Positions 8,771 through 63,785 of a stretch of 64,000 nt of DNA are shown here, in pieces; position 1 is the first letter of the stretch; each line of letters opens with the position of its first letter. The notes under the pieces were generated by a model. It saw only the letters and a list, made by a program, of their open reading frames with translations, made no database searches and had not been told where the DNA came from. This stretch comes from an uncultured Clostridia bacterium (lineage in GTDB: Bacteria; Bacillota; Clostridia; Oscillospirales; Ruminococcaceae). Location of the stretch: positions 124,001 through 188,000 of the forward strand of contig CANQUJ010000001.1 in assembly GCA_947627005.1 (NCBI GenBank), written 5' to 3'. The translations under genes were made by a program, and so were the position numbers.

Positions 8771-8804
8771 AAAAGAAAAAAAGCGACAATTTCGTCGCTT
8801 TTTT
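8771..8804. terminator. Bidirectional terminator
   Basis: Perfect stem AAAAAAGCGAC / GTCGCTTTTTT (8777-8787 with 8794-8804), 6-nt loop. T-runs are available in both directions. It would stop the minus-strand DUF3237-like transcript before the blaI promoter. Confidence 0.8.
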
Positions 8805-8912
8805 AGAAGATAGAGAGTTAGAGGATAGAAGTTAAAAGGATAGAAAGTTTGAAATCGCAGAAAGCCGCAAAACCAAACCTCTATCCTCTAATTTCTAAAT
8901 TCTATCCTCTAA
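8803..8912. repeat. Heptad-repeat tract (copy 1), folding as a hairpin
   Basis: A purine-rich arm of 7-bp units (TTAGAAG, ATAGAGA, GTTAGAG, GATAGAA, GTTAAAA) at 8803-8845 and a pyrimidine-rich arm of the same period (CTCTATC, CTCTAAT, TTCTAAA, TTCTATC) at 8878-8912. The outer 13 bp (8818-8830 and 8900-8912) pair perfectly. The centre contains AAAGCCGCAAAA, also seen in the copy near 21.87 kb. The second arm overlaps the last codons and stop of the neighbouring gene. Confidence 0.75.
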
Positions 8913-9291
8913 GAGCGTAAATCGAGACCACAACTCCGCCGTCGGCCTGTTTGATTTTCGCCTTAAGGGGCCTGTTTTCAAACTCCGATAGCGCGGCGCT
9001 GTCGGTTATAATCCTCGGCTCGAAGCCGCCCTCGAAGCTTCCGTTGTTTTCGATGAAGATTCGGCAGGGCAGGCCGTTTATATCCTTGCCCTCGAGCATA
9101 TATCTCGCCGAAAGGGAAAGCGGCCCGCCGATCTTCCCGCGCTGGGTATCCACCCCCGTGCCGAGCGATCTGCCGTTAAAATATCTCCCCTCGGCAGTCG
9201 CCGAAAAGCAGAGCATATTCGCCTCTTCGCTTTTGCCTTTAACCCCGAAGCCCTCGGTGATTTTAACATAGACGTCGAAAAGCTTTTCCGT
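8902..9291 (-). CDS. DUF3237-like protein with ACG in place of the start codon
   Basis: Reading up to the stop gives 129 aa if translation begins at ACG 9291. The core (LSARYMLEGKDINGLPCRIFIENNGS ... PRIITDSAAL) resembles DUF3237, a small beta-barrel family of unknown function. The in-frame sequence upstream of the first ATG (9216) is protein-like: EKLFDVYVKITEGFGVKGK. It begins right after ACG, with a GGGGG ribosome site 8 nt before. No ATG, GTG or TTG lies in frame between 9216 and the upstream stop TAG at 9306. Either a non-canonical ACG start is used, or ATG mutated to ACG and the gene is being lost. The last codons lie inside the heptad repeat. Confidence 0.6.
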   Translation of the reverse strand, partial: TEKLFDVYVKITEGFGVKGKSEEANMLCFSATAEGRYFNGRSLGTGVDTQRGKIGGPLSLSARYMLEGKDINGLPCRIFIENNGSFEGGFEPRIITDSAALSEFENRPLKAKIKQADGGVVVSIYALRG

Positions 9292-9306
9292 TTTTGATTC
9301 CCCCTA

Positions 9307-9335
9307 TAAAATCGCCCCGAATAAAGCTCGGGGCG
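9307..9335 (-). terminator. Terminator after the 185-aa lipoprotein gene
   Basis: Perfect 8-bp stem CGCCCCGA / TCGGGGCG (9313-9320 and 9328-9335), followed on the minus strand by a short ATTTTA tract; moderately strong. Confidence 0.6.
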
Positions 9336-9341
9336 GCGCGA

Positions 9342-9899
9342 TCATGATATTGTTTCAGAGGTCATTTTTCCGTCTTCCGAATACTGCCTGTCGGTAGTCT
9401 CGAAAAGCTCGCCCTCGTGATAGACCTCGGAGTGATAGTCTTTAATCGTTTTGCCGTCGGGGTAGTAGTTCTGTTCGCCGACTTCGCGGGTCTTGATCCC
9501 CTCGGCGTCGGTGTAGTTATTGTCCCAATTTCCCTTGGTCATGACTTCGTTTTCGTCGAAGTGTATCTCTGAATAATAGCTTGCGCCGTTGCCGCAGGTA
9601 TAGTTCACCCAAAGCTCGACCTTATCAAAGCCGATGGTTACGTTGTATTTTATCATCTCGCCGGTCTCGGCGTCAAAGAAGACGTCTTTTTGCCCGACCG
9701 ACGAGGTCAGCGCTTCGTCCGAAAAAAGAGTATACATTCTTTCGGTGACCGCGCCGGCGCCGTTTTCGACCTCGTATTCAAGCTTTCCGTAATAGCCGTT
9801 AAAGCTGCCGTAATCGACCGATTTTCCGCCCGCGGGCAGCGCGCATGAGCAGAAAAGAATTGCAGCCGCGGCAATTATCGCCGCGATTTTTTTAGTCAT
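9342..9899 (-). CDS. Lipoprotein with YwqK/MORN-like repeats
   Basis: A 185-aa lipoprotein: residues 1-20 are a signal peptide ending in LFCSC. The mature part contains alternating short motifs of the type F(D/E)AETGEMIKYN, YYPDGKTIKDYHSE, YHEGELFETTDRQYSEDGKMTSE. These resemble the (Y/F).(D/N)G... repeats of MORN/YwqK-type proteins. The function of such lipoproteins is not known. It is monocistronic between rnpB and its own terminator. Confidence 0.7.
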   Translation of the reverse strand: MTKKIAAIIAAAAILFCSCALPAGGKSVDYGSFNGYYGKLEYEVENGAGAVTERMYTLFSDEALTSSVGQKDVFFDAETGEMIKYNVTIGFDKVELWVNYTCGNGASYYSEIHFDENEVMTKGNWDNNYTDAEGIKTREVGEQNYYPDGKTIKDYHSEVYHEGELFETTDRQYSEDGKMTSETIS

Positions 9900-9933
9900 T
9901 GTATATCTACCCCTTCTTACGGGAAATTTTTCG

Positions 9934-10286
9934 TGGTGCGACTAAGCCGATAAGCCGAGTTTTGTCGTGTGCGGCAATCTATCTACGTCCGACGTCGCCG
10001 CCGGACTCAAGCCACCTTATCGCCGTGCCCGCCGAGCAGGCGTTTAGACACGGTCGAACCAAACGGTGTTGCATCGGGTAGGGTTTACACTCGGGAGCGG
10101 TCTCCCGTCCCGCGGTGAGCTCTTACCTCGCCTTTTCATCCTTGCCGTATAAAACGGCGGTTGTTTTCTGTTGCACTTTCCCTAAGGTCGCCCTCGGCTG
10201 CCGTTAGCAGCTACCCCGCTCTTTGATGCTCGGACTTTCCTCATTCGCCGGCGAACCGACGCCCGCTGCCGCATGGCTTACTCGCA
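9934..10286 (-). ncRNA. rnpB: RNase P RNA
   Basis: Catalytic RNA of ribonuclease P, which trims the 5' end of pre-tRNAs. On the minus strand the conserved landmarks are in order: GAGGAAAGTCCGAGCAT near the 5' end, GGGAAAGTGCAACAGAAA (J-regions around P8-P10), and near the 3' end ACAAAACTCGGCTTATCG. Total length is about 350 nt, as expected. Ends are set by the promoter at 10293 and the last conserved stem and are approximate by ~10 nt. This stretch has no protein-coding gene. Confidence 0.92.
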
Positions 10287-10292
10287 GAAAGT

Positions 10293-10321
10293 ATTCTACA
10301 ACAGTTTTCGCCGATTGTCAA
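10293..10321 (-). promoter_or_regulatory. rnpB promoter
   Basis: Minus strand TTGACA (10321-10316), 17-nt spacer, TAGAAT (10298-10293). The expected transcription start, about 7 nt downstream, coincides with the 5' end of RNase P RNA. Confidence 0.8.
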
Positions 10322-10380
10322 CATTTATTCGAGAAATTAGAAGATAGAATCCTGCCCCCCCGATTTCTTCCCCTTGCGTA

Positions 10381-10409
10381 TTGACTATTTTCCCCTGAAA
10401 TGATACAAT
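10381..10409 (+). promoter_or_regulatory. Promoter of the PHP-glycosyltransferase-yfhO operon
   Basis: TTGACT, 17-nt spacer, TACAAT, 30 nt upstream of the PHP gene start. Confidence 0.7.
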
Positions 10410-10438
10410 ACAATAGATTATAATCGGAATTTTGTGAG

Positions 10439-11209
10439 ATGATAGCATTGAAGAAATACAAATACGAAACCCATATGCACACTTCGCAGGGGTCGGATTG
10501 CTCGTCGACCTCGGGGGCGAAGATGGTCGAGCGGCTGTACGAGCTCGGCTACGCCGGCTGTTTTATAACCGACCACTTCTTCGGCGGCAACACCGCCGTA
10601 AGGGGCGAGCTTGCAAAGCTCCCGTGGGAGCTTAGGGTCAGGCTCTTCTGCCAAGGCTACGACGACGCGAAGCGGCGGGGCGACGAGCTTGGGCTTAAGG
10701 TCTTCTTCGGGCTCGAGTTCGGGTGGAGGGCCACCGAATTTCTTACCTACGGCATAGATATGAACTTTTTGATCTCTCACCCCGAGATCGACAATATGCC
10801 GATACAGTATTTCGCCGACCTCGTCCACGAAAACGGCGGCTTCGTAGTCCACGCCCACCCCTTCCGCGAGGCGGATTATATCGACACGATAAGGCTATAC
10901 CCCCACCGGGTCGACGGAGTTGAGATCTATAACTGCAACAACCGCGACGAATACAACATTCGGGCGAAGCAGTACGCCGAATCATACGGCCTGCCGGCAA
11001 CCGGCGGGTCGGACTCGCACCACCGCTGGTGTCACCCGAACGGCGGCGTATACGTCGACGAAAAATTCGAGACGCCCTTCGACTATTTGGCCGCGATGAA
11101 AGATAAAAGCCTTACCATTGCGGAGCGCGACCACTCGACCGACTATGACCCGGGCGAAAGCGCTTGGGCGAACTGCGTAAGGCCGAGCTTAGAGCTTTTA
11201 AAGGAGTAG
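10439..11209 (+). CDS. PHP-domain phosphoesterase
   Basis: A 256-aa member of the PHP metal-dependent phosphoesterase family. Visible metal-ligand motifs: HMHTSQGSDCSS near residue 12, an acidic site in FGLEFGW, HAHPFREAD near residue 140, and GGSDSHHR near residue 196. The PHP family includes histidinol phosphatase and 3',5'-phosphoadenosine / nucleotide phosphatases; the substrate here is not evident. It is the first gene of an operon with a CsbB-like glycosyltransferase (2-nt gap) and YfhO (4-nt overlap). Start ATG 10439 has only a weak ribosome site (GTGAG); TTG 10448 is an alternative. Confidence 0.85.
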   Translation: MIALKKYKYETHMHTSQGSDCSSTSGAKMVERLYELGYAGCFITDHFFGGNTAVRGELAKLPWELRVRLFCQGYDDAKRRGDELGLKVFFGLEFGWRATEFLTYGIDMNFLISHPEIDNMPIQYFADLVHENGGFVVHAHPFREADYIDTIRLYPHRVDGVEIYNCNNRDEYNIRAKQYAESYGLPATGGSDSHHRWCHPNGGVYVDEKFETPFDYLAAMKDKSLTIAERDHSTDYDPGESAWANCVRPSLELLKE

Positions 11210-11211
11210 AA

Positions 11212-12117
11212 ATGATATCAATAGTCATACCCGCCTTTAACGAAGAGGAAAACATCTTTCCGGCGGCAGAGGCCGTCTGCGGGGCGCTTAAAGGCGAAGA
11301 ACACGAAATTATTTTCGTCGACGACGGCTCGACGGACGAAAGCTGGAGCGAGATCCTTCGCGCGGCGGAAGACCCGAATATAAGGGGGATAAGATTTTCC
11401 CGCAATTTCGGGAAAGAGGCCGCGATTCGCGCCGGACTCGAGGCCGCCTCCGGCGAGGCTGCGGTGGTTATGGATTGCGACCTTCAGCACCCCCCGGCTG
11501 TAATACCGAAGATGATAGAAAAATGGCGGGGCGGGGCAAAGGTCGTAGAGGGCAAAAAGTCCTCCCGAGGGAGCGAAAGGCCCGCCCACGGCGCCCTTGC
11601 GGGGATCTTCAATTCGCTTATGAGCCGGGCGACCGGGTTCGATATGACCGGCGCTTCGGATTTCATTCTTTTGGACAGAAGGGCGATAGACGCGGTTTTG
11701 TCATACGGCGAGCAGGGAAGCTTTTTCAGAGCGCTTTCGCAGTTCGTCGGGTTCAGGGCCGAAGAGGTCGAATACGAAGTCGCCGCGCGAGAGCGGGGCA
11801 GGGGGAAGTGGACTTTTAAAAAGCTGGCGGGGTACGCCCTAAGAAACGTCGCTTCGTTCTCCTCTCTGCCGCTATATATAAGCTTTTTCGCGGGCGGGGC
11901 GATTTCCCTTATCGGGCTGGTTTTATTGATCCTCGGCCTTTGCGGGGCAAATCTTGAAAGCTTTACCGCCGGTATATCCGTCGTCATAATCCTGGCGGGA
12001 ATAATTCTTGCGGCGATAGGCGTCCTCGGGTTTTACGTTTCGAGGATATACGAAGAGATAAAGGGCAGGCCGAAATATATAATTTCGGAAGACACCGACG
12101 AAAGGAACCGAATATGA
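11212..12117 (+). CDS. Membrane glycosyltransferase family 2 (CsbB/GtrB-like)
   Basis: A 301-aa polyprenyl-phosphate glycosyltransferase. Residues 1-225 form the GT2 GT-A domain: IVIPAFNEEENI, FVDDGSTDESW, MDCDLQHPP (DxD metal site). Two C-terminal transmembrane helices follow at ~228-255 and ~265-290. ATG 11212 is chosen since AAAGGAG precedes it by 5 nt and it follows the PHP stop by 2 nt. In Bacillus subtilis, CsbB makes undecaprenyl-phosphate-GlcNAc, which YfhO uses to decorate lipoteichoic acid; the yfhO overlap here implies the same pairing. The sugar is unknown. Confidence 0.88.
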   Translation: MISIVIPAFNEEENIFPAAEAVCGALKGEEHEIIFVDDGSTDESWSEILRAAEDPNIRGIRFSRNFGKEAAIRAGLEAASGEAAVVMDCDLQHPPAVIPKMIEKWRGGAKVVEGKKSSRGSERPAHGALAGIFNSLMSRATGFDMTGASDFILLDRRAIDAVLSYGEQGSFFRALSQFVGFRAEEVEYEVAARERGRGKWTFKKLAGYALRNVASFSSLPLYISFFAGGAISLIGLVLLILGLCGANLESFTAGISVVIILAGIILAAIGVLGFYVSRIYEEIKGRPKYIISEDTDERNRI

Positions 12118-14927
12118 GCGAAAACGAATTTATCGAAAAAACCGGCGAAGAGCGCGCCCCAAAAAAGCCGACTTTTGCCGAGCGGGCATATTCCGCGTTC
12201 GATTCAAACCGCCTCGGCAGGGCGATATATAAGCGCAGGGTCGGGCTTGCGGCGTTCTTCCTGCCGGTTTTGATAATGTATCTCGCATACGCCTGCTACG
12301 GCGTTCACCCGTTCGGGGATCTCTCCGTTCTGGTCCTCGATCTAAACGGCCAGTATGTAAGCTACTACGAGGCTTTTCGCGACGCCATCTGGGGCGACGG
12401 CAGCCTTGTATACAGCTGGTCGAGAAACCTTTCGGGCGAAACCCTCGGAATGTTCGGCTACTATCTCGCAAGCCCGTTTATGTGGATAGTCGTTTTGCTG
12501 CCGCGAAGAATGATCCTCGGCGCGATCGAGATCATGGAGCTTGCAAAGGTCGGCTGCTGCGGGCTTTCGATGGCCTATTACCTCAAGCGAAGCAAGGGCG
12601 CGAAGCCGTCTTCACAAATAATCTTCTCGGTAACCTACGCTTTGATGACCTATATCGTCGTCGAGCTTATGAACCCGATGTGGATAGACGGAATGATCTG
12701 GCTGCCGATAATTCTTCTGGGGATAGAGCGGCTCGTCGACGAAGGAAAGATGCTTCCGTTTATTCTTCCGCTGACGGTTATGTTTATCTCTCACTTTTAT
12801 ATCGGCTATATGACCGGCTTTTTCTGCGCGCTCTATTTTATCTACTATGTTTTTTCAAGAGAGGGCCGCGCGATAGCCCCGCATTGGTTCGACCGCGGGC
12901 TAAGGTTCGCCGGTTCGGCGATAATCTCTGTTATGAGCGCCGCGGTGGTGCTTATCCCGGTATACAGCTCGCTAAGCCTCGGAAAGCTCGAATTTTCCGA
13001 CCCGGATTTCTCTCCGCGAAACCAGTTCGATATCTTCGGCTTCATCTCTAAGCTCTATACCAACTCATACGACACCGTTCGGCCCGAGGGGCTTCCGATG
13101 ATAGCCTGCGGCACCGCCATACTCATACTTTTGCCGCTTTTCTTCCTAAACACAAAAATCAAGCCGAAAGAGAAAATTTCGATAGCACTTTTGATGCTCG
13201 CGGTCTTCGGGAGCATGTACGTCTCGACGATTGATATCGCGTGGCACGGCTTCCAGGTCCCGAACTGGCTGCCGTATAGGTATTCCTACACCTTCTCGTT
13301 TTTGATGATAATCTGCGGCTTCAGGGCGTTTGAAAACCTCGAAGGGGTAACCTTTAAAGAGATTTGCCTTACCGCCTTCGGTTGGATAGCCATGCTCGCA
13401 TTTATAAACAAACAGCAGTACGAGCATATATACCTCGTCGAGACGGTCTGGTTCGGGGTTTTGGCGATATGCGTTTTCGCGGGGCTTATCTATATCTGCA
13501 AGAAATACCCGCGCGGCGTTTCGATAACCGTAACGGCGGCGTTCGTCTGTATAGAGGTCTTCATAAACAGCCTATATACCGTCTACGCCATCGACTACGA
13601 CGTAGTTTACAGCACATACAGCTCTTATGTTCCCTATTTTAACGACGGCCGCGAGATAGTCTCTCAGCTCGAAGAGCGCGACGACGGGCTTTACAGAGTC
13701 GAAAAAACCTTCCACCGCACAGTCAACGACCCGATAGGAATGGGCTTTAAGGGGATCTCCCACTCGAGCTCGACTATGAACACCCCGGTCCTCAATATGT
13801 TAAAATCCCTCGGCTACGGCATGCAGGGGCACTTTACCAAATACACCGGCCAAACCCCGGTGACCGATATGCTCTTCGGGATAAAATACATTATGTATAA
13901 AGAATCCGATCCTGCCGAACCGGAGGAGGGCGAGACCACCTCGGCCGACGATATCGAGCGGGTCAAATACGAAAACCTTATAAAGCGGCCATATTCGGGG
14001 TATGAGAAGATCATGACCCCCGAGACGACCGGGGTCGATAAAATAGAGGTATACCAAAACCCCTACGCCCTGCCGATAGGATATATGGCGGACGAGGACA
14101 TTTTAAAGATCACGACCGACTCTAAAGACCCGTTCAGGAACCAAGAGACCGTTTTAAGCGGCATAACCGGCAACCCGAGGGTGAGCGTTTTCCACCAGCT
14201 CTACCCCCGCTTTACCGACACCGTAAACTGCACTACCGCCACCACCGGCGACCATATTTGGTATACCACCACCGTCGACGGAAAGGACAGCTACGTTGAA
14301 TTTACCGTCGATATAGACACCGACCAGCCGGTGTTCGCATTTTTCCCGACAATATACCAGCGCCAATGCAATATGTGGCTTAAGGCCGATTCTTGGGATA
14401 TAAACAACTACGCCTTCGTCGACTATTTCTTTAAGGGCGAGTATTACAGCATTTTAAACCTCGGTTCGTTCGAGCCGGGAGAGACGATAAAGCTGCGAAT
14501 GACACTTGCCAACGGAGAAGCCCTTTTCAGCGACGTTTTGTTTTACAGTCTTGACGCCGAAGCCCTTAAAGAGGTATATGACCAAATCGCCCCGGGCGGC
14601 TGGAACATCGCCGAGCACAGCGACACCCACCTTGTCGGAACGGTAAACGCGCAGAGCGACGGAATATTTATGACCACCATTCCGCAGGAGCCGGGCTGGA
14701 CGGTTAAAGTCGACGGCGAAAAGGTCGACACCGTGACGGTTTTGGATTCGCTCATCGGAATAGAGCTTTCGGCCGGTGAGCACGAGATAGAGATGAAGTT
14801 CTTCCCGGATTGCCTCGTTCTCGGCGCGGCGGTGTCGCTTATCGGGCTTTCGTTTATCGCGCTTGTAGCGGTATTCGAGGTCAAAAACGGCGCTATCATC
14901 AAGAAGATTCTTAAAAAAACAGCTTGA
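12114..14927 (+). CDS. yfhO: YfhO family membrane glycosyltransferase
   Basis: A 937-aa multi-pass GT-C-type membrane protein. The first membrane segment is at ~47-67 (VGLAAFFLPVLIMYLAYACY), followed by the luminal loop with DLNGQYVSYYEAF, where the first-loop acidic residue of GT-C enzymes is expected. About 12-13 helices run to ~residue 500. A large extracytoplasmic domain (~520-890) follows, with a beta-rich C-terminal part ending in IPQEPGWTVKVDGEKVD. A last helix lies at ~900-922. It overlaps the GT2 stop by 4 nt (ATGA). By analogy with CsbB-YfhO it transfers a sugar from undecaprenyl phosphate to a cell-surface polymer; which polymer is unknown. Confidence 0.88.
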   Translation: MSENEFIEKTGEERAPKKPTFAERAYSAFDSNRLGRAIYKRRVGLAAFFLPVLIMYLAYACYGVHPFGDLSVLVLDLNGQYVSYYEAFRDAIWGDGSLVYSWSRNLSGETLGMFGYYLASPFMWIVVLLPRRMILGAIEIMELAKVGCCGLSMAYYLKRSKGAKPSSQIIFSVTYALMTYIVVELMNPMWIDGMIWLPIILLGIERLVDEGKMLPFILPLTVMFISHFYIGYMTGFFCALYFIYYVFSREGRAIAPHWFDRGLRFAGSAIISVMSAAVVLIPVYSSLSLGKLEFSDPDFSPRNQFDIFGFISKLYTNSYDTVRPEGLPMIACGTAILILLPLFFLNTKIKPKEKISIALLMLAVFGSMYVSTIDIAWHGFQVPNWLPYRYSYTFSFLMIICGFRAFENLEGVTFKEICLTAFGWIAMLAFINKQQYEHIYLVETVWFGVLAICVFAGLIYICKKYPRGVSITVTAAFVCIEVFINSLYTVYAIDYDVVYSTYSSYVPYFNDGREIVSQLEERDDGLYRVEKTFHRTVNDPIGMGFKGISHSSSTMNTPVLNMLKSLGYGMQGHFTKYTGQTPVTDMLFGIKYIMYKESDPAEPEEGETTSADDIERVKYENLIKRPYSGYEKIMTPETTGVDKIEVYQNPYALPIGYMADEDILKITTDSKDPFRNQETVLSGITGNPRVSVFHQLYPRFTDTVNCTTATTGDHIWYTTTVDGKDSYVEFTVDIDTDQPVFAFFPTIYQRQCNMWLKADSWDINNYAFVDYFFKGEYYSILNLGSFEPGETIKLRMTLANGEALFSDVLFYSLDAEALKEVYDQIAPGGWNIAEHSDTHLVGTVNAQSDGIFMTTIPQEPGWTVKVDGEKVDTVTVLDSLIGIELSAGEHEIEMKFFPDCLVLGAAVSLIGLSFIALVAVFEVKNGAIIKKILKKTA

Positions 14928-15040
14928 CCCGGCGCGAAAAGAGTAGTAAAATTTAATTGAAAGATTTTTCGCCCCCGCAATATTTCGCGCTCCTTACGCA
15001 TATTAAAAGTAGAAAATTATTTTAAAGGAGCGTTAATACA

Positions 15041-16009: not shown

Positions 16010-16043
16010 CCAACAAAATTTTGACATAAAGGAGAAAAAGAAA

Positions 16044-16662: not shown

Positions 16663-16675
16663 ATTGGCAGATATT

Positions 16676-16781
16676 CGGATATCGGAGAACAGAATTTATT
16701 TTTGAAAGTTTCTTCAATTCCCGCTTTCTATCCTTCTAACTTCCGATTTCCGACCTCTGATTTCTGTGTTCTTGCTTCTTT
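16676..16781. repeat. Heptad-repeat tract (copy 2)
   Basis: Seven consecutive 7-bp units from 16733 to 16781: CTTCTAA, CTTCCGA, TTTCCGA, CCTCTGA, TTTCTGT, GTTCTTG, CTTCTTT. A shorter purine-rich partner (ATCGGAG, AACAGAA) lies at ~16681-16694. It fills the gap between pduL and hemW. Confidence 0.75.
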
Positions 16782-16821
16782 TTTAAAATTATGCTAAACT
16801 TAAAACAAGGGGGGTGCTTTC

Positions 16822-17934
16822 TTGCTCGGCATATATATCCACGTTCCGTTCTGCGTTAAAAGGTGCGGCTATTGCGCCTTTTGTTCGTCGGTGGCAAGCG
16901 CCTCCGAAATTTCCCGCTATTCCGCCGCGCTGATAAGAAATATCCGCGCCGCCGGCGGCCGCGGCCTTTGCGCCGATACCGTCTATTTCGGCGGGGGAAC
17001 GCCCTCGCTTCTTTCGGGGCGGGATTTTTCCGCGATTCTCTCCGCCCTGCGCGAAAGCTTTGATATCTCCCCCGGCGCCGAAATCACCGTAGAGGCCAAC
17101 CCCGAAACCGTCGACTTTTCAAAGCTCGCCGAATATAAAAGCGCCGGCGCGAACAGAATTTCCTTCGGGGTTCAAAGCGGCATAGACAAAGAGCTCTCCG
17201 CTCTCGGAAGAGTCCACGACTTTAAAAAAGCGGCCGAGGCGGTATCCGCCGCAAGGTCCGCCGGGATAACCAACATCTCCTGCGACCTTATGCTCGGCAT
17301 ACCCCGCCAGACCTTGCCCTCCCTCGCCGAGTCGATAGATTCTGTCTGCTCCCTCGGGATGACCCACCTTTCCGCTTATATGCTAAAAATCGAAGAGGGA
17401 ACCGCCTTCGACTGCCCCGAGGTTCGCGCCCTTGCGCCGGACGACGATACCGTCGCCGATATGTACCTCTATGCCGTAAAAGCCCTTTCAGAGCGCGGCT
17501 TTAAACAGTATGAGATATCCAACTTTTCCCGCCCGGGCTTTGAATCCCGCCACAATTTAAAATACTGGACCGGCGAGCCGTATCTCGGCTTCGGGCCGTC
17601 GGCACATTCTTTCTTCGGCGGAAAGAGGTTTTTCGTCCCGCCGGATATAAAAGCCTTTATCGAATCTCCGCTTCAGGAAACGGCTTTAGAAGACGCTTCG
17701 CCCGACCCTCTCGAGGAATATATCCTCTTGGGGCTAAGGTTAAGCGGGGGGATATCCCTTGAAAAGCTCTCCTCTCTCGGCGGAAGCAAAGAGCGCTTTT
17801 TAAAGGACGCCGAACCGTTTGTATCCGCCGGAATGATGAAGCTTTCGGGCGATTCCGCCGCGTTGACGACAAAGGGCTTTTTGGTCTCTAACGGCGTAAT
17901 TTTCGCGCTGATAGATTCGCAGAGCGAAATCTGA
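16822..17934 (+). CDS. hemW: Radical SAM heme chaperone HemW (HemN-like)
   Basis: A 370-aa radical SAM protein. The 4Fe-4S motif is at the N-terminus: C11-x3-C15-x2-C18 with an additional C21. Then GGGTPSLL (~residue 57), the TVEANPE strand and the RISFGVQS motif (~110). The C-terminal HemN-like region includes YEISNFSRPG and a GFGPSAHSF motif. HemW delivers heme; older annotation calls it oxygen-independent coproporphyrinogen oxidase. The start is TTG 16822 with a GGGGGG ribosome site; no better start is in frame. Confidence 0.92.
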   Translation: MLGIYIHVPFCVKRCGYCAFCSSVASASEISRYSAALIRNIRAAGGRGLCADTVYFGGGTPSLLSGRDFSAILSALRESFDISPGAEITVEANPETVDFSKLAEYKSAGANRISFGVQSGIDKELSALGRVHDFKKAAEAVSAARSAGITNISCDLMLGIPRQTLPSLAESIDSVCSLGMTHLSAYMLKIEEGTAFDCPEVRALAPDDDTVADMYLYAVKALSERGFKQYEISNFSRPGFESRHNLKYWTGEPYLGFGPSAHSFFGGKRFFVPPDIKAFIESPLQETALEDASPDPLEEYILLGLRLSGGISLEKLSSLGGSKERFLKDAEPFVSAGMMKLSGDSAALTTKGFLVSNGVIFALIDSQSEI

Positions 17935-21738: not shown

Positions 21739-21807
21739 CTTGAACTCCGAAAAAAATAATATTCATCGGCAGTATAACACATTTTTTTGAAAAAGTAAAG
21801 CGCTTTT

Positions 21808-21922
21808 GGAAATCGGAAAACAGAAATCAGAAGTCGGAAATTATAAGGACAGAAAGTCCGAAACCTCTCAAAGCCGCAAAAACAACTTCTGTTCTCTGAC
21901 AATCCGATATCTGTCCGTCTGA
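21808..21922. repeat. Heptad-repeat tract (copy 3)
   Basis: Purine units CGGAAAA, CAGAAAT, CAGAAGT, CGGAAAT at 21814-21841, a centre containing AAAGCCGCAAAA (also in copy 1), then a pyrimidine-rich arm (ACTTCTG, TTCTCTG, ATATCTG) to 21920. It lies between divergently placed ends: upstream of lepA and downstream of the anti-sigma gene. Confidence 0.75.
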
Positions 21923-30742: not shown

Positions 30743-33700
30743 TTAAGCGGGGTCGTCCGCGGCGAGGGCGGGCTCGGTCGGCGTTTCGACGACGTATTCG
30801 TTCTCGTCGTCCGGCGCGAACTCGGTGTTGTCGCGAACTCCGACAAATCCGCAGAAGCTGCAAACGCCGTTGGAATCATAGCTGTGCGGCGCGAATTCGT
30901 AAACCGCCCCGCAGATGTCGCAGGCTATCCAGTGGTTAAAGCCGTTGTACTTAAGGGTGAAGCTGTGAATGTGGCCGGGGTTTCCGCCGGGGTTTCCGCC
31001 CGGGTTTCCGCCGGGGTTGCCGCCGGGGTTATCGCCGGGGTCGTCCGAGCCTTGGGTCGAGGATATAACGTTTACGGTAACGCTGTTAGAAGAGGCGGTC
31101 GAAGACCCGGCGGTGACGGTTACCTCGCAGTAGTATTCGCCGGAATTGTCGACGCTGTGGCCGTTGCCGTCGGTGCCGGTAAGGGTAAGGCTGCTGCCGG
31201 TTCCGACGTGTATCGCCTCGCCGTTCGCGCCGATCTTATACCAGTTGTATTCGTAGTTCGGGTTCGGGTTCGCGACATAAAGCTTAACGCTGCCGTCGGC
31301 CTCGGTCTTAACGCTTCCCGCGCCGCCGTTAATCGAAATATCTTTTTGGGCCGGGGCGACCGCCTTCGGGACGACCGCGGTTCCCTTGTCGTTTAAAATC
31401 GCCGCCTGCGCCGCGAATCTCGCCGAAATAAGAGAAGAATCGGCCTTTATGTCTTCATAAGAAAGGGTGAAGGTATAGCTTTCGCTTTCTCCGTTATAGC
31501 CGCATTCCGCGCCCGAAACCTCTACGCTGTCGATGATATAGCCCGGGTCGGGTGTGACGGTGATCTTGCAGCTTTCGCCCTCTTTAAGAGAGACTCTTCC
31601 GCCGCTTATTCCGTCGACTTCGACCTTTCCGCCGACGTCCGCCATCGCGGCGACGGTCTTTTCGGTCGGCGCGCTGCCGTCGTCGGCTACGGCGACCACC
31701 GCAAACGGCGAGAATTTTCTACATTCGATCAAAAGGCCGTATTTGGTGATGGTGCAGGGTATCTCTTCGACCCCCAAAATCTCGCCGGTGTTCGGGTCTT
31801 TGTCGAAGTGGTAGGCTTTAAAGGTAACCCCCTCGTCATCCGGCCCATAGCCGACCGGGAAGCCGAGCTGAATCCTTACGGACATGCCGTCGGCAAGCTC
31901 TGCCCACTGCTTTTTACAAAGGGTTAGGCTGATGTTGTATGTAGTCGCCGAAAGAACGTCTTCGCCCTCGGAGGTTATCATATCCTCCATCTTGTGCTCG
32001 TCTTTGGCGCCGGTTTCGGATACCACGAGCATAAGCTTGCTCTTGTATTTTTCGTCCCATTCGGTGCCTTCCCAGACGTTTCCTTCGCTGTCCTTCCAGC
32101 CGTCCATAGAAAGGTCGCCGTCGGTGACGAGAACCGGCTTCGCGTGGGTGTTATAGTCGAAGCCCTGACTTCTGTAAGCGCAGATCGCGCAGGGCGCCTG
32201 TACCACCCAGCCGAAGGAATCTGGGGTCTTGCCGCTGTATGCGCCGACGAGGCCGGTAAGATAGAACACATACGCGACGTTATCGTCGAGCCACATCGAG
32301 CTGGTCGTATAGTCGAACTCGATCTTAGTCTCGGTCTGAAGCCCGTTCGTGGTCATGACGTCGACAAAGCTGATTTGAATATTTCTCATATTCTGATACT
32401 GCGCGCCGTTGTCGTCGCGTTTGATAAAGCTGTCGACCACATGGGCTTCAAGCTTAAAGTCGTTCGCGGTTGCGGAGCGCACGGCTTCTTTATATCCCTC
32501 TTCGCCGACTCGCTCGGTCTCGCACCATTCTTTATAAACCTCGGGGGTGACGAGGATATCGTTGAAGTATGCGACAAAGTGCTCGGTCGCGCCGAGGCCG
32601 ATGCAGCCTCGGGCATACGAGGGCTCGCCGTGAAGCGAGGCGGGGGCGGCGCGGTAGGTTCCGCTTTCGTTGTGTAAAAGCCCGCTTCTTGCAAGAAGAA
32701 GGGTCTCGTCGCCGTGGAAGAACATATCCGGGATAACGCCCATCTGGAATACCGGCGACGGGTCGATGGTAACGCCGAACTCGACGTATTCGACATGGGG
32801 CATATAGAACCAAGTCTCGTCGCCGTGGTCCGAGGCGTCGTCGGTCTGGCCGTAAACCTCCGGCATATAGTAGTGCCACTCGGTCTCCTCCCAGCCGGTC
32901 TCAACGTCGTATACCTTGTATCTCATCAAGAGATAGTAGCCGTTTTTCTTCATCTCGGTGGCGTTCATGCCCATATAGCTTACGCAGTAAACCCCGCCCT
33001 CAAGAATCTCTTCGTCGTAGGCGTCGCTCTTGAATTTGACGACGAGCGGGCTGTTTTCTTCGGAGATAAGCTCGAAATCCACCCCGAGCGAGGGGTAGTC
33101 GAACGCCCTGCCGTCCGGCGACATCGTTCCGTCGGTATAGTGGTGGACCGACATTTTCTGCTCGCCGACAAGAAGATATTCGTGCGATTCGTAGCCGTCG
33201 TCCCCGGTGATGGTATACTTCCCCGCCTTCGGGTTAACCGGGTCGTCCATAGTCGCGTCGACCGCGTACCATCTTCCGCCGAGATAAACTTCGTTCCAGA
33301 TGTGCGCTTCGGCGACCTTGTCGCTGTGGCGGTATACGCCGCTTACCATAACGCAGGGGATACCGAGGGCGTCCATCGCGGCCTTAAATGCGCGGGTGTA
33401 TGATTCGCAAACGCCGCGCCTTTTAACGAGGGCACCGTAGGCGGTTCTGATGAATCCCATATCGTCGGGGGCGATTTTTGCGATCGCAAGCTCGTCGGTA
33501 TAGGAAACCCTTTTCGTGATCCAGTCGTGGATAGCGATGACCTGCTCTCTTTGGTCCGAATAAGGGGCGGCGGCGCTTAACATCTCTTTAAAAGCGGCGT
33601 CGTATTCGTTTATCGCCGACTCGACCTGGGCTTGGTTGGTAAATCCGTCGGTGTAATAGGTCGGGTATCTTCCCGCGCCGAGGTAAAGGTGGTAGCCGTC

Positions 33701-35862: not shown

Positions 35863-35931
35863 AATCCGACTTCCGACTTCTGTCTTTCAACCTCCGTTTC
35901 CGACTTCTGATTTCTGACTTCTGATTTCCGG
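35863..35931. repeat. Heptad-repeat tract (copy 4), pyrimidine arm only
   Basis: Units CTTCCGA, CTTCTGT, CTTTCAA, CCTCCGT, then after a 1-bp phase slip TTTCCGA, CTTCTGA, TTTCTGA, CTTCTGA, TTTCCGG. It lies in the 273-bp gap between the GH39 and MazF genes; the rest of that gap holds only the hairpin at 35978. Confidence 0.75.
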
Positions 35932-37345: not shown

Positions 37346-37425
37346 ATATAAAAATCCTTTCTTTTTATCTGCAATTTATAACGGCGAAGATTCTCGCGCA
37401 TTGGTAACCAACCGCATTTAAAATC

Positions 37426-37440
37426 GTCGCCGAAGGCGAC
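37426..37440. other. Short perfect hairpin in the holB-ricT gap
   Basis: GTCGCC-GAA-GGCGAC, 6-bp stem with a 3-nt loop, 86 nt beyond the holB stop on the minus strand; not followed by a T-run. Confidence 0.4.
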
Positions 37441-37445
37441 ACATT

Positions 37446-37486
37446 AAAATTCCGACCTCTGATTTCCGATTTCTGTTTTCTTGAAG
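37446..37486. repeat. Heptad-repeat tract (copy 5), short
   Basis: Units ATTCCGA, CCTCTGA, TTTCCGA, TTTCTGT, TTTCTTG in sequence inside the 172-bp gap between holB and ricT. Confidence 0.7.
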
Positions 37487-42034: not shown

Positions 42035-42103
42035 GACAGACAGCCGACCTCGCTTTCCGCTCCCGGCTGTCTGTCTTCTGGTTTCCGACAATCTGTCTGT
42101 CTA
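42035..42103. repeat. Heptad-repeat tract (copy 6) with 12-bp hairpin
   Basis: GACAGACAGCCG (42035-42046) pairs perfectly with CGGCTGTCTGTC (42064-42075). Pyrimidine units follow (GTCTGTC, TTCTGGT, TTCCGAC, AATCTGT) to ~42100, ending at the queA stop codon (42101-42103). Confidence 0.7.
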
Positions 42104-57264: not shown

Positions 57265-57292
57265 AGACCTTTTATGAAGGAGAAGGATCGCC

Positions 57293-58513: not shown

Positions 58514-58557
58514 CCCCTTTTCTTTTCCTGCGTTTTATTTTATAAGGGGGGATATTT

Positions 58558-59142
58558 TTGGGACTGCGCGAGCAGGTATACAGCGTTCTTTTGGTATCGA
58601 ACGCCGAAAAATTCAATAATTCGCTGATATCGGCGCTTCCCGAAAAGAAATATTCGCCGATAAAGATAGTCGCGGGGGTCGGAAGCGCCAAGCGCGAGCT
58701 TTTGGAGCGCGGATACGACATCGTAATCATCAACACCCCGCTGCCGGACGACTACGGCACCCGCCTTGCGATCGACCTTTCGAGCGAGATAGGGCTCGGG
58801 GTTTTGATATTCGTCAAAAGCGAGAATTTCAGCGAGGTATACGACCAGGTCACCGACTACGGGGTATTGACTGTCTCTAAGCCCGCGAGCGGGCAGATAG
58901 TTTTGCAGTCGCTGCTGCTTTTGTGCGCGACGAGGGAGCGGCTTAGAAGAATGGAGCAGAAGACCGCCTCGATAGAAGAAAAGATGGAGGAGATCAGAAC
59001 CGTAAACCGCGCGAAATGGATTTTGATAGACAGCCTTAAGATGAACGAAAACGAGGCTCACAGATATATCGAAAGACAGGCTATGAACCGCTGTCTGACA
59101 AAAAGGCAGATAGCGGAGGAGATCATAAAGCAATATAAATAA
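58558..59142 (+). CDS. ANTAR-domain antitermination regulator
   Basis: A 194-aa RNA-binding regulator. Residues ~1-115 have a receiver-like fold, but the acidic pocket is gone (LLVSNAE for VDDE) and the phosphoacceptor position is N59 (IVIINTPLP). Residues ~120-145 form a coiled coil. Residues ~150-194 are the ANTAR domain (NRAKWILIDSLKMNENEAHRYIERQAMNRCLTKRQIAEEI). ANTAR proteins bind hairpins and block terminators. TTG 58558 start with AAGGGGGG. Placed at the end of the glt-glnA operon, it should act on the leaders at 52175 and 51938. Confidence 0.93.
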   Translation: MGLREQVYSVLLVSNAEKFNNSLISALPEKKYSPIKIVAGVGSAKRELLERGYDIVIINTPLPDDYGTRLAIDLSSEIGLGVLIFVKSENFSEVYDQVTDYGVLTVSKPASGQIVLQSLLLLCATRERLRRMEQKTASIEEKMEEIRTVNRAKWILIDSLKMNENEAHRYIERQAMNRCLTKRQIAEEIIKQYK

Positions 59143-60768
<1,626 letters not shown>

Positions 60769-60774
60769 AAAATC

Positions 60775-60858
60775 AGACGGCAGAATCGGAGAAAGCCGAA
60801 GAAATTTAATCGCCGGCGCGGCGAGCAAATTCCGGTATCCGATTCCGCCGTCTTTTCT
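60775..60858 (+). terminator. pyrG terminator (long stem)
   Basis: A 16-bp stem AGACGGCAGAATCGGA (60775-60790) and TCCGATTCCGCCGTCT (60838-60853) with one mismatch, then TTTTCTTG. The loop of 47 nt has its own GC-rich palindrome. It resembles the heptad family in using GA-rich / CT-rich arms. Confidence 0.65.
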
Positions 60859-60886
60859 TGACTGCGCCCATTTCGCATGTTATAAT
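60858..60886 (+). promoter_or_regulatory. Promoter of the LRR-protein gene
   Basis: TTGACT, 17-nt spacer, TATAAT, directly after the pyrG terminator and 36 nt before ATG 60923. Confidence 0.8.
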
Positions 60887-60922
60887 TTCATAAATTAAAG
60901 AATTTTGAGGAGCGGTGATTTT

Positions 60923-62254
60923 ATGAAAAAATATCTTCCGAGCCTTATTTTCGGGACGATCGCGCTGATAGCGGCTGCGGCGCTTTTTGTATATCTTGAC
61001 CGACAGCCGGACAAGACGGCGGGCGACGGCGAGGGCGAAGAAAAGATCCTCGCGATGAAGCTTAAAGACGACGAAAGCGGCTATATCGTAACCGGCCGCG
61101 GTAGCGTAGACGGCGCGGAAATAGTTATTCCGGCCGAATATAAAGGCGTTCCGATAGTCGAAATCGGCGAGCGAGCCTTTCGTGAAGACCGCAGTCTGAC
61201 CTCGATCATAATCCCCGAGACGGTTGAAAAAATCGGCGAGAGCGCCTTTGCGGGGGCCGGGATATCCGAACTTGCCCTGCCCGAAAGCGTTGAAGAAATC
61301 GGCGACTACGCCTTCTGCCGCTGCGAAAAGCTTGAAAAAGCCGCCCTGCCCAAGGCCGTCGGCAGCTTGGGCGAGCATCTTTTCGAGGATTGCTCAAAGC
61401 TCGTTGAAGCAACATTGCCCGAAAGCTTGACTGTGATTCCAGCGTATATGTTCACCCGCTGCACATTGCTTGAGAGCGTAGTGCTTCCCGCCGAAGTCGA
61501 GTCAATAGGCGAGTATGCGTTTAGCGTCTGCAATTCGCTCAGGCACATCGACCTGCCGAAAAGCGTTAAAACCGTTTCAGACTCCGCTTTCAATATGGCA
61601 AGGCTTGAAGAAATCATTCTGCCGGGCGGGATTAAAGAAATCGGCGCGAATTCGTTTTCGGGAAACCCGCTGACCGAAATAGAATTGCCCGACAGCCTTG
61701 AAAAAATCGGCAGCCGAGCTTTTTTGAATACCGATATCGCAAGCGTATATATTCCGTCTCGCGTTGCCGAGATCGGCTTTGAGGCTTTCGGCGGGAAATA
61801 CTATTTGTCCGATAACGGCGGGATCTCCGAAATAACCGTCAGCGAGGAAAATTCTGTATATTACAGTTCGAACAACTGCGTTATTATTCGCGAAACGGGC
61901 GAGCTGATTCTCGCGCCGGATCCCGACAGCGTTCCCGACGACGGCAGCATTAAAATCATCGGGCCTTTCGCTTATGCAAACGCCGACGCAGACAGGGTAT
62001 CTATCCCAGAGGGCGTAACGCTTCTGAAAAGCAACGCCGTGTCGGATTTTGACAGGATAGACGAGATTTTGCTTCCCGCAAGCCTCGAAAAGATAGAAGC
62101 GGCGGCAATAAGCGCGGTAGATTCTCACGGAGGATCGGTTGGAAAGATTTTATTCAAAGGTACGCACGATCAGTGGGCGGCGATCGAAAGGGACGAGGAA
62201 TGGCTTTCAGACGCCGACAATGTTTTGCTGATAGACGTCATAGATTTAGATTAA
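60923..62254 (+). CDS. BspA-like leucine-rich-repeat surface protein
   Basis: 443 aa. Signal anchor at ~5-25 (LPSLIFGTIALIAAAALFVYL), then LRR_5/BspA-type repeats from ~60 to 415. Each is ~22-24 residues with ...V.(I/L)P..(V/L)..IG..AF..C..L... (IGESAFAGAG, IGDYAFCRCEKL, IGEYAFSVCNSL, IGSRAFLN). BspA repeats mediate binding of host or other bacterial surfaces. GAGGAGCGG precedes ATG. It is anchored only by its N-terminal helix; no sorting signal. No partner genes follow except the broken small gene. Confidence 0.87.
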   Translation: MKKYLPSLIFGTIALIAAAALFVYLDRQPDKTAGDGEGEEKILAMKLKDDESGYIVTGRGSVDGAEIVIPAEYKGVPIVEIGERAFREDRSLTSIIIPETVEKIGESAFAGAGISELALPESVEEIGDYAFCRCEKLEKAALPKAVGSLGEHLFEDCSKLVEATLPESLTVIPAYMFTRCTLLESVVLPAEVESIGEYAFSVCNSLRHIDLPKSVKTVSDSAFNMARLEEIILPGGIKEIGANSFSGNPLTEIELPDSLEKIGSRAFLNTDIASVYIPSRVAEIGFEAFGGKYYLSDNGGISEITVSEENSVYYSSNNCVIIRETGELILAPDPDSVPDDGSIKIIGPFAYANADADRVSIPEGVTLLKSNAVSDFDRIDEILLPASLEKIEAAAISAVDSHGGSVGKILFKGTHDQWAAIERDEEWLSDADNVLLIDVIDLD

Positions 62255-62270
62255 AAAGAAGGATTTAATT

Positions 62271-62392
62271 ATGCCAAAAGATTCACAAAAGCAAAAGTTG
62301 AAAAACGCCTGAAATCTGCGTTTAAAAACCTATTCGTCAAAGTTGAGGCTTTGGACAAGATCTTTGTAGAAACGGATAAAGGAGTTAAATAG
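62271..62392 (+). pseudogene. Small gene with an apparent -1 frameshift
   Basis: ATG 62271 has a good AAGAAGG site 8 nt upstream, but its frame stops after 13 codons. From 62282 another frame reads on without a stop for 36 codons, in a protein-like way (FTKAKVEKRLKSAFKNLF, VEALDKIFVETDKGVK). A single missing base around 62281 would join the two into a ~40-aa basic, amphipathic peptide. No family recognised. Confidence 0.45.
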
Positions 62393-62465
62393 TAGGCGGC
62401 GAAAAAGAATAAGCGGGGAGGGATGGGCTCTATGCTATCCCCGATTTCCTTTATCTGAAATTATT

Positions 62466-62494
62466 CCCGCCCGCACCGATTTGGCGCAGGCGGG
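62466..62494. terminator. Bidirectional terminator of the cotJ operon
   Basis: 12-bp GC-rich stem with two or three G-U pairs (CCCGCC...GGCGGG), 5-nt loop. Lies 14 nt beyond the cotJC stop. Confidence 0.75.
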
Positions 62495-62507
62495 TAGTTT
62501 TGCGGAT

Positions 62508-63110
62508 TTACTTTTTTACGTCAAAGCTCGGGTTGAAGGCGTAGAAGTTCTTCGCGTCGAGCTTGTCGGTGACGAGGCGAAGGGCTTCACCGAACCTCTG
62601 GAAGTGGACGATCTCGCGCTCGCGGAGGAATTTGATGACGTCGCGGACGTCCGGGTCGTCGACGAGGCGAAGAATGTTGTCGTAGGTAAGGCGGGCTTTC
62701 TGCTCCGCCCCCATATCCTCGCTTATGTCGGCGATCGGGTCGCCGGTCGATTGGAATATATCCGCGCAGAACGGATAGCCCGAGGCCTGAACGGGGTAGA
62801 GGCCGTTCGTGTGGTCGACAAAATAGGCGTCGAAGCCGCTCTCTTTGATCTCCTTCGGACTCAGGTTTCTCGTAAGCTGATAAACTATCGAGCAGATCAT
62901 CTCCATATGCGAAAGCTCTTCGGTGCCGATGTCGTTTAAAATCGCCTTGACCTCCGGCGTCGGGGCGGTGTATCGCTGCGAAAGATATCTCATCGCCGCG
63001 CCGAGCTCGCCGTCGGGGCCGCCGAACTGGGTTATGATTATCTTCGCGGCGGTCGGGTCGGGCTTCTTTATTTTAACGGGATATTCAAGCTTTTTCTCGT
63101 ATTTCCACAT
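62508..63110 (-). CDS. cotJC: Spore coat protein CotJC (manganese catalase family)
   Basis: A 200-aa ferritin-like di-manganese catalase family protein: GPDGELGAAMRYLSQRY, IGTEELSHMEMICSIVYQL (metal ligands E-x2-H), DPIADISEDMGAEQKARLTY, VIKFLREREIVHFQRFGEAL. Acts in the inner spore coat. Operon order cotJA-cotJB-cotJC is the standard one. Confidence 0.95.
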   Translation of the reverse strand: MWKYEKKLEYPVKIKKPDPTAAKIIITQFGGPDGELGAAMRYLSQRYTAPTPEVKAILNDIGTEELSHMEMICSIVYQLTRNLSPKEIKESGFDAYFVDHTNGLYPVQASGYPFCADIFQSTGDPIADISEDMGAEQKARLTYDNILRLVDDPDVRDVIKFLREREIVHFQRFGEALRLVTDKLDAKNFYAFNPSFDVKK

Positions 63111-63123
63111 ATCTCTTCACCTC

Positions 63124-63378
63124 TCAATTTGCCGAAAGTTCCCAAGGGAACGGCCCGTCGACCCAAGCCCAGCGGCTGTCGTTTTGCTCCGACATAACGC
63201 AAAGCGGCCCGTAGGACTTTTCGTACTGCTCTTTTGCCTCTTCGCAAAGCTTCTTGTTTTTATTGTAGAACGCAAGCGCCTCGGCGCAGTCGGGGTGAGT
63301 GTCCAAAAAAAGCGCCGCGTCGGTCACCGCGAAGGAATACATCTGAACTCTCTTTAAAAGCTTCTCTCTGTCGTTCAT
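63124..63378 (-). CDS. cotJB: Spore coat protein CotJB
   Basis: 84 aa; family motif LLKRVQMYSFAVTDAALFLDTHPDCAEALAFYNKNKKL and the end WAWVDGPFPWE. The start overlaps the cotJA stop by 4 nt. Confidence 0.94.
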   Translation of the reverse strand: MNDREKLLKRVQMYSFAVTDAALFLDTHPDCAEALAFYNKNKKLCEEAKEQYEKSYGPLCVMSEQNDSRWAWVDGPFPWELSAN

Positions 63379-63596
63379 AGCGGTCTCTCCCCCAAAAAAG
63401 GCTTGTCGAGGTCTTCAAAGACCGTTCCTCGGTCGAGAGCGACCGAAGGGTCGTATACGTTTTTCCACTTCTGATATGGCACATAAGCCATTCCGACCGG
63501 GGTTTCCGCGGGGAACGCGCTCATCGTGTTGTTTTTCGGGCAAAGGGGGCAGCTCTTCGCGGCCTCCTCGGCCTCTGCTATATCGGCAAGGTTCAC
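63375..63596 (-). CDS. cotJA: Spore coat protein CotJA
   Basis: 73 aa. CotJA core MAYVPYQKWKNVYDPSVALDRGTVFEDLDKPFLG. An N-terminal CPLC motif is noted. The start is GTG 63596 (AAAGGA 11 nt upstream); the ATG just upstream leads to a stop after four codons. First gene of the coat operon. Confidence 0.9.
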   Translation of the reverse strand: MNLADIAEAEEAAKSCPLCPKNNTMSAFPAETPVGMAYVPYQKWKNVYDPSVALDRGTVFEDLDKPFLGERPL

Positions 63597-63612
63597 TCTA
63601 TAACCATTCCTT

Positions 63613-63648
63613 TCAAAAAAAGATCCCGAGGGTTTTGTCCCTCGGGAT
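63613..63648 (-). terminator. Terminator between the edge gene and cotJ
   Basis: Perfect 10-bp stem ATCCCGAGGG / CCCTCGGGAT (63623-63632 and 63639-63648), 6-nt loop, followed on the minus strand by CTTTTTTT. Confidence 0.85.
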
Positions 63649-63683
63649 ATACTATGCTCTTCCCGCTTTCGCGGTTACAAACG

Positions 63684-63785
63684 CAGAAAACAGAAATCAG
63701 AGGTCAGAGATCGGAAGCAAAAAAGACAGGCAGTGCGGAAAAACCCGACTGTCTGTCTTCTGCTTTCTGTTATCTGTCTTCCGAC
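63684..63785. repeat. Heptad-repeat tract (copy 7)
   Basis: Purine units CAGAAAA, CAGAAAT, CAGAGGT, CAGAGAT, CGGAAGC (63684-63718); a GACAGGCAGT / ACTGTCTGTC core; pyrimidine units TCTTCTG, CTTTCTG, TTATCTG, TCTTCCG (63756-63783). It abuts the stop codon of the edge gene at 63786. Confidence 0.75.

Follow-up and report, generated by a model that had tools for sequence, protein, structure and literature searches.

Intergenic repeats with a seven-base unit are known from several bacterial lineages, including the TAACTGA repeats of Beggiatoaceae, Cyanobacteria and Bacteroidetes, which the available part of their description portrays as direct, patchily distributed across genomes, mostly exact and close to start codons, with transposon excision as one conceivable source (PMC4679880), and the heterogeneous GGGAATC heptamers of Xanthomonas and GGGGA(C/T)T heptamers of Nostoc, which form G-quadruplexes, occur in part as convergent inverted pairs and, in the portion of that report available to us, are not associated with transposition (PMC4692102). 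A tandem repeat of longer, 23-nt units resides within BrickBuilt, a short, non-autonomous, intergenic miniature inverted-repeat transposable element (MITE) of Porphyromonas gingivalis (PMC4596501, available in part). The present analysis concerns a 64,000-nucleotide stretch (hereafter the window; positions 124,001 to 188,000 of contig CANQUJ010000001.1, assembly GCA_947627005.1) of an uncultured Clostridia bacterium of the family Ruminococcaceae, in which degenerate heptads of the consensus RTCRGAA form intergenic arrays, some of which belong to a transposable element, here termed class B. As judged from sequence, this small element with few heptads and its likely parent insertion sequence (IS) tend to land at a nearly constant position just upstream of promoters in gut and rumen Clostridia.

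The arrays share with the TAACTGA repeats a seven-base, direct, intergenic and patchy character, and with the Xanthomonas and Nostoc heptamers their heterogeneity and the convergent pairing of some; unlike the TAACTGA repeats, their units are degenerate and often make up fold-back arms, and one class is a MITE which, like BrickBuilt, is short, non-autonomous and intergenic and encloses a tandem repeat, of seven-base rather than 23-nt units. The words Clostridi- and Firmicutes are absent from the main text of PMC4679880. The surprising part is the choice of target: promoter-phased insertion is what is new, and the heptads look like cargo. No promoter-phased bacterial transposon is described in the titles and abstract openings returned by a full-text literature search, the coverage of which leaves out most subscription papers, and a 2024 review of MITEs, which reports intergenic preference and promoters inside MITEs, makes no mention of a fixed promoter distance in the part available (PMC10969869).

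Class B is an element of about 123 bp, matched in 12 of the 31 genus genomes compared (G000 being the window's own genome) by a 123-nt query that is itself a copy from G018; the numbers of matches, at least 1 to at least 37 per genome, are lower bounds, and in G018, 19 of the 28 matches listed are 97 to 100% identical to the query. LepA identity to the G000 protein separates a near clade (91 to 93%) from a second clade (86 to 88%; G001-G016 and G030), in which class B found no match, while G020, with no full LepA match, is unplaced. Eighty-five distinct full-length copies were gathered from the best-match loci and from 60 places taken mostly in list order and chosen before their flanks were seen, the few that repeated earlier loci being merged. 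Exact target duplications of 7 to 10 bp, starting 0 to 1 bases from the left end, flank 40 of the 85 copies, against 0.07% of mismatched flank pairings with 7 bp or more; allowing for one base of uncertainty at the left boundary, most true duplications measure 8 or 9 bp. Short, multi-copy and bordered by target duplications, class B fits the usual description of a MITE, and its flanks show that it has transposed, generating 8- to 9-bp duplications.

The comparison of orthologous gaps suggested by the first-pass annotation of the window bore this out, with element-bearing and empty versions of two gaps. Upstream of lepA, G000 carries a fold-back element of another kind (class A, described below), G022 and G025 class B, and G018 a further heptad array; no element was detected by scan in G017, G019, G021, G023, G024, G026, G027, G029 and the 17 second-clade genomes, and G020 and G028 were not judged. 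Between holB and ricT, read in 13 genomes, the genes are almost adjacent in ten relatives, and the gap holds a class B remnant in G000 (tract 5), a different array in G018 and another neighbour gene in G017. Separately, heptad elements with another 3' part (GAGGCGCTGCCGAATGCGGC...) are repeated at L139:1494-1867 of G028 and constitute a further class B-like family.

Promoters were predicted from hexamers, the -35 and the -10 each matching at no fewer than 4 of 6 positions with a spacer of 16 to 18 bp. At the left end of class B a predicted -35 starts 15 to 18 bp away in 43 of the 85 copies, with 42 of these falling at 16 or 17 bp, and every other distance between 0 and 49 bp accounts for at most 3 copies; the right end has a promoter at 14 to 17 bp in 10 copies, and one or other end does so at the fixed distance in 50, compared with 1.5% for shuffled left flanks. 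All 39 copies whose -35 matches at 5 or more of 6 positions at 16 to 17 bp also possess a -10, at 16 to 18 bp. When a joint hexamer score of at least 9 is applied instead, 59 of the 85 left flanks have a promoter (47 at 16 to 17 bp), compared with 10 when they are read in the opposite direction, toward the element, and with 10% after shuffling; for the right flanks the counts are 18 of 85 and, toward the element, 4 of 85. Of the 53 promoter flanks, 37 lead into an open reading frame (ORF) that has a ribosome-binding site, as opposed to 35 of the 117 other flanks. Where a copy shows both a duplication and a left promoter, the two are separated by 7 bp (18 of 20) or 8 bp (2 of 20). In over half of the full-length copies, the promoter-proximal joint lies about 7 bp upstream of a predicted -35; in promoter coordinates the joints fall near -43 and -52, a region which we take to be that touched by the alpha C-terminal domains of RNA polymerase.

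If insertion were random and selection spared only those copies just upstream of promoters, the intergenic position of the elements, at the least harmful sites, would be accounted for; selection, however, predicts a broad band upstream of the -35 in place of the observed concentration at 16 or 17 bp with at most a few copies elsewhere. IS256-type copies of the same genus, examined as a control, have a promoter at 14 to 18 bp in a single one of 23 flank readings (at 18; some readings repeat a site), and we regard selective survival as very improbable. This difference in target phase also led to the rejection of IS256 as the mover of class B, as did, more weakly because the genomes are drafts, the lack of a PF00872 match in G017, G023, G025, G027 and G028. 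One IS256-type copy of G018 (L258) lies, by eye, inside a heptad array with an 8-bp duplication, CAATTCTG.

The alpha C-terminal domains contact DNA just upstream of sigma region 4. We propose that RNA polymerase bound at the promoter, or else the stretch of DNA immediately upstream of sigma region 4 to which these domains bind, serves as the docking site of the transposase or of its target complex, so that insertion would be phased to the promoter and genes would rarely be broken; polymerase is invoked because both hexamers are present and the phase is fixed. The main rival holds that the transposase reads promoter DNA itself, be it the -35 and -10 or a bend, with no involvement of RNA polymerase, and a phase fixed to the -35 within 1 to 2 bp is what direct DNA contact would give. 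The accompaniment of every strong -35 by a suitably spaced -10 suggests instead that the whole bipartite promoter is selected, which RNA polymerase would accomplish more easily than a small transposase, and direct reading is therefore considered possible but somewhat unlikely. Promoter-guided integration is familiar from yeast, where the Ty3 and Ty1 retrotransposons insert at fixed distances from promoters through the transcription machinery of RNA polymerase III genes; those are eukaryotic retroelements, whereas a bacterial DNA transposon, sigma-A-type promoters and a presumed polymerase contact would be at issue here. In its fullest form, a proposal that we consider evenly balanced between right and wrong, an IS1-like branch and its MITEs in Oscillospirales would dock on the RNA polymerase holoenzyme and cut the DNA 7 bp upstream of the -35 with a stagger of 8 to 9 bp, as a bacterial counterpart of the yeast process, with elements stacking in the untranscribed space upstream of promoters.

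A candidate source of the transposase emerged from a search of G018 and G022 with the class B right end (20 places read), which returned sister MITEs of 112 bp and 292 bp and, in G018, an IS of about 905 bp. The right end of class B (GGGAGTGTCTAAATCGCCC) matches that of the IS (GGGAGTGTACAAACCGCCC), the left end being more divergent. ORF A of the IS encodes an InsA-type zinc ribbon (PF03811, 30.1 bits against a cutoff of 26.1; IS1_IS1595_Zn, 32.4 against 28) and has an A-run near its end, and an IS1-transposase-like ORF B follows separately, downstream and in another frame, with acidic residues that are conserved in an 8-sequence alignment and are presumably catalytic (IS1-type DDE). Members of the IS1 family join their two ORFs through a -1 frameshift at a run of A residues. 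The ends of IS copy L336 are, by eye, imperfect inverted repeats, and its duplication CGCGCTTTT is followed by 7 bp and then by TTGACT-17-TACAAT; the 8- to 9-bp target duplications and terminal inverted repeats of the IS1 family are thus seen here, in the 40 MITE copies mentioned above and in L336. Among the 31 genus genomes, ORF B was found in 7 of the 12 that bear class B and in 0 of the 19 others (Fisher p 0.0003). Class B is likely a non-autonomous relative (MITE) of this IS1-family-like IS of the same genus, which would make the IS its likely parent.

Elements with this type of end are also found beside promoters. At the IS loci a -35 is situated 15 to 17 bp away in 15 of 45 flank readings, a set that includes duplicates and stacked ends. 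Of 79 ends (L333-L407, up to 4 mismatches, a few of them possibly fortuitous), 31 lie no more than 44 bp from a promoter, at 14 to 16 bp in 22 cases, and the 66 ends not flagged for heptads (L350 and L352 among them do carry heptads) include 27 with a promoter, 20 at 14 to 16 bp; shuffled flanks yield 1.3% at 14 to 18 bp. A homologue was detected in 11 of 245 genomes of the order, and at 9 of 19 loci examined from other genera and families (27 listed) a -35 lies 34 to 41 bp after the transposase stop, against 2.6% when shuffled. As the element ends about 20 to 21 bp after the stop, this corresponds to the same phase or nearly so, the -35 of L385 being a few bases further away. A large share of copies of the likely parent, of the heptad-free sister MITEs and of the IS homologues of other families occupies the same or nearly the same position relative to a predicted promoter. 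Canonical Escherichia coli IS1 differs in this respect and was rejected as a promoter-seeker, since 0 of 9 sites have a promoter at 14 to 18 bp (weak ones occur at 11 and 19); 18 of 40 of its matches listed overlap a feature besides the transposase.

Certain IS1-like family elements are stacked end to end beside one promoter (L341, L378, L340, L344 and L339), with repeated target duplications such as TTTATATCT in L378, and the stacks look as if each new insertion lands by the promoter and pushes the older ones outward. The MITE of approximately 292 bp holds several GC-rich hairpins and a terminator-like sequence between its ends (L338:3001-3295, L346, L344 and L339:2701-2992).

Were the heptads a mobility or targeting signal, with the transposase binding the array, their nearly fixed extent in class B would be understandable, the run between the P1 foot and TTCAAGG measuring 34 or 35 nt in 57 of the 85 copies and 43 nt in 22. 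The IS and the 112- and 292-bp MITEs, however, have ends of the same type and no heptads in the copies read, and several sit at the same promoter phase, which renders such a role highly improbable. We instead suggest that the heptads were picked up as passengers from older fold-back repeats, namely class A and the lone arrays, and that these older repeats most probably expanded through 7-nt slippage and dispersed by recombination.

Taken as a whole, we consider it probable that lineage-specific heptads reside in several kinds of element, one of which, class B, is a MITE of an IS1-like IS, inserts in phase with promoters and carries its heptads as passengers. Several observations weigh against this interpretation. 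No exact target duplication is apparent in 45 of the 85 class B copies and no promoter at the fixed distance, by the criteria used, in 35; a duplication does not raise the share of copies with a promoter (24 of 40 with, 26 of 45 without), and all promoters considered are hexamer predictions. ORF B scores just below the cutoff of the Pfam IS1 family PF03400 (E 2.1e-4; 22.1 bits against 24.1) and below that of NF033558 (34.2 against 100), both ORFs are under the NCBIfam IS1 cutoff of 100, and ORF B found no match in G000, G019, G020, G023 and G028, which bear class B. The class B remnant of the window has a promoter at neither array edge, and the promoter distances of class A and lone arrays in G000 are spread from -2 to +49 bp, so that these lack the precise phase of class B.

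The heptad arrays themselves are well founded. In 457,747 bp of G000 DNA, comprising the window and 20 stretches, many of which were picked for holding matches such that array density there is not the genome average, 41 tracts matched themselves at lag 7 (at least 23 of 35 positions), where a single Markov shuffle had none; the corresponding numbers are 2, 3, 1 and 0 at lags 8, 10, 11 and 13, and 16, 15, 12 and 16 at lags 9, 12, 15 and 21, the latter probably reflecting coding sequence. A heptad model called 64 arrays at a score of 24 or more, 7 of them inside the window, against 0 in shuffled and 4 in reversed DNA, and across the whole genome 101 sites match the pattern ATCRGAARTCRGAA with up to one mismatch, whereas 3 match its reverse. 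A seven-base tandem period, by which short tandemly repeated repetitive (STRR) and long simple sequence repeat (LSSR) families are defined, is hence above chance in this genome. Neither of the outcomes that would have counted against the first-pass annotation, a period no stronger than chance or a lack of further copies elsewhere in the genome, was seen, and the seven main tracts that it had listed were all recovered at or within a few bases of its positions (Table 1), with AAAGCCGCAAAA common to tracts 1 and 3 as it had stated. Its two minor traces, near 10335 and 60775, are uncertain because their scores of 17 and 19 require the looser cut-off of 16, at which 84 arrays are called in real, 2 in shuffled and 22 in reversed DNA.

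Table 1. Heptad tracts and associated features of the window
Feature	Position	Strand	Description
Tract 1	8803..8912	+	Class A fold-back: purine arm, GTTAAAAGGATAGAAAG core at 8831, AAAGCCGCAAAA middle, pyrimidine arm
Weak heptad trace	10332..10349	+	Score 17, uncertain
Tract 2	16675..16784	-	Reversed class A element that precedes hemW
hemW	16822-17934		HemW by NCBIfam
lepA promoter (predicted)	21771..21799	-	-35 TTTACT (21794-21799), 17-bp spacer, -10 TATACT (21771-21776)
Tract 3	21806..21922	+	Class A; flanked by the lepA promoter on one side and, by eye, a terminator-like hairpin on the other
Tract 4	35865..35930	-	Lone pyrimidine-oriented heptad array, 66 bp
Tract 5	37417..37484	-	Class B remnant (68 bp at 82% identity to query 22-89) lying between holB and ricT (PSP1)
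Tract 6	42035..42103	.	Short hairpin GACAGACAGCC / GGCTGTCTGTC and pyrimidine heptads
Weak heptad trace	60761..60793	+	Overlaps the pyrG end; score 19, uncertain
Tract 7	63684..63787	.	Fold-back element with a different core

Degenerate heptads form many intergenic arrays in this genome and more than one kind of element. Among the 52 strong elements in the G000 DNA analysed, 25 consist of a purine followed by a pyrimidine array (FR), 13 of a single F and 10 of a single R array, with 2 RR, 1 FFF and 1 RFR and no pair of the opposite order (RF). Folding back as hairpins likewise holds for some tracts only, the plus-strand RNA fold z-scores of tracts 1 to 7 being -5.1, -1.4, -2.1, +0.7, +2.1, -4.2 and -6.6. 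Tract 4 resembles class B at the heptad level only, and the array of tract 6 (42044-42089) reaches a model score of 23. Promoters like that of lepA also precede lepA in relatives without any element (by eye). At gathering score, Rfam matched RNase P alone in the whole window (a bacterial class A RNA on the minus strand, 9935-10284), and class B loci L223 and L168 gave only a tRNA up to E 1; a known RNA family was accordingly discarded as the identity of the elements, no curated match having been found beyond these two. Long ORFs of the window contain tandem repeats with periods of 12 to 96 bp (1853-2042 and 30974-31041).

Class A, to which tracts 1 to 3 belong, is a repeat of about 115 bp (30 rows aligned, at least one being the opposite arm of another) with a common core and asymmetric arms, whose core motif, with up to 3 mismatches, has 37 matches in G000 against 13 in the control and 4 to 18 in relatives against 2 to 26. 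Arms belonging to the same copy resemble each other no more closely than arms drawn from different copies (P 0.994), which led us to reject arm-to-arm homogenization of the hairpins and suggests that class A was copied as an asymmetric whole. Target duplications were also rejected for class A, direct repeats of 7 to 12 bp in broad flanking windows being no commoner (11 of 30 rows) than in mismatched flanks (38%), with repeats of 8 bp or more in 7 of 30 rows against 20%. The suggestion of a mobile hairpin element is borne out for class B, which duplicates its target, is missing from orthologous gaps of relatives and has a likely parent among transposons, and not for class A. Class A and lone arrays adjoin promoters reading away from them in 25 of the 52 elements (27% of edges, against 2.3% when shuffled), and none of their edges has a promoter reading toward the element. 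A separate dispersed sequence near CTAAAAGTTTTCGATCCAACCTTTTTCAAAAGGTTGGCG is directly joined to heptad arrays at L016:9781-9880, L028, L031:6396-6560 and L032:8264-8400.

Two further explanations offered at the outset apply to part of the material at most. A slippage-driven, immobile heptanucleotide satellite, as in cyanobacteria or Xanthomonas, would fit the degenerate units, the 1-bp slips and the lack of an excess of direct repeats around class A, and heptamers are stated to be the most abundant long simple repeats of most genomes (Mrazek 2007, as cited in the available parts of PMC4679880 and PMC4692102). Slippage may well apply to class A and the lone arrays; as an account of all tracts it is unlikely, given that class B transposes and has a nearly fixed heptad run, and that the shared core and asymmetric arms of class A point to en-bloc copying. 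That class A hairpins are RNA 3' ends or processing signals draws on the good folding of some and on several copies that touch terminator T-runs (by eye), but others lie upstream of promoters and outside the predicted transcript, and their fold scores range from strong to weak, such that we consider this quite improbable; as the single explanation of all arrays, a shared RNA 3' end is not supported, for although some arrays adjoin terminators (by eye), 25 of the 52 elements have at an edge a promoter that reads away from them.

The distribution of the heptads is uneven across the genus. Matches to ATCRGAARTCRGAA are strongly enriched in G000, G017, G018, G022, G027 and G028 (72 to 235) and moderately so in G020, G021 and G023-G025 (22 to 37), with 2 to 18 elsewhere against 0 to 12 in controls, G019 (15 against 0) and G026 (18 against 3) being above control. 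Since no lag-7 tract was found either in 320 kb of the second clade or in 80 kb from G018, G022 and G027, that test does not discriminate among relatives, and the contrast between clades rests on the pattern counts and the class B search. The first-pass annotation knew of no such family in Clostridia; lag-7 tracts built of other heptads were found in several further lineages of clostridia. A set of 80 lepA loci from named clostridia (946,290 bp) contains 21, at least one of which (L107) looks coding, against 1, 1, 2 and 2 at lags 8, 10, 11 and 13 and 14 to 28 at lags 6, 9, 12, 14, 15 and 18. The heptad units differ by lineage, and fold-back pairs were recognized by eye at L104:3430-3770, L093:10569-10740, L091:2962-3130, L058:5890-5985 and L114:5052-5150. 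The pair of L058 is located between promoter-like sequence and the lepA start codon, which would place it in the 5' leader. Two lepA frames of the genus (G002:C9:5804-7603 and G001:C12:175834-177630) have one internal stop each (TGA, TAG), possibly through assembly error.

The heptad arrays extend a known, little studied class of seven-base repeats to clostridia, in which the heptads differ by lineage. A near-constant promoter phase, if true, would represent a way of choosing targets that is unusual among bacterial DNA transposons and can be tested, and would explain how such elements multiply in compact genomes without breaking genes. Insertions of this kind could then mark promoters in uncultured bacteria, and the system might allow DNA to be placed upstream of promoters.

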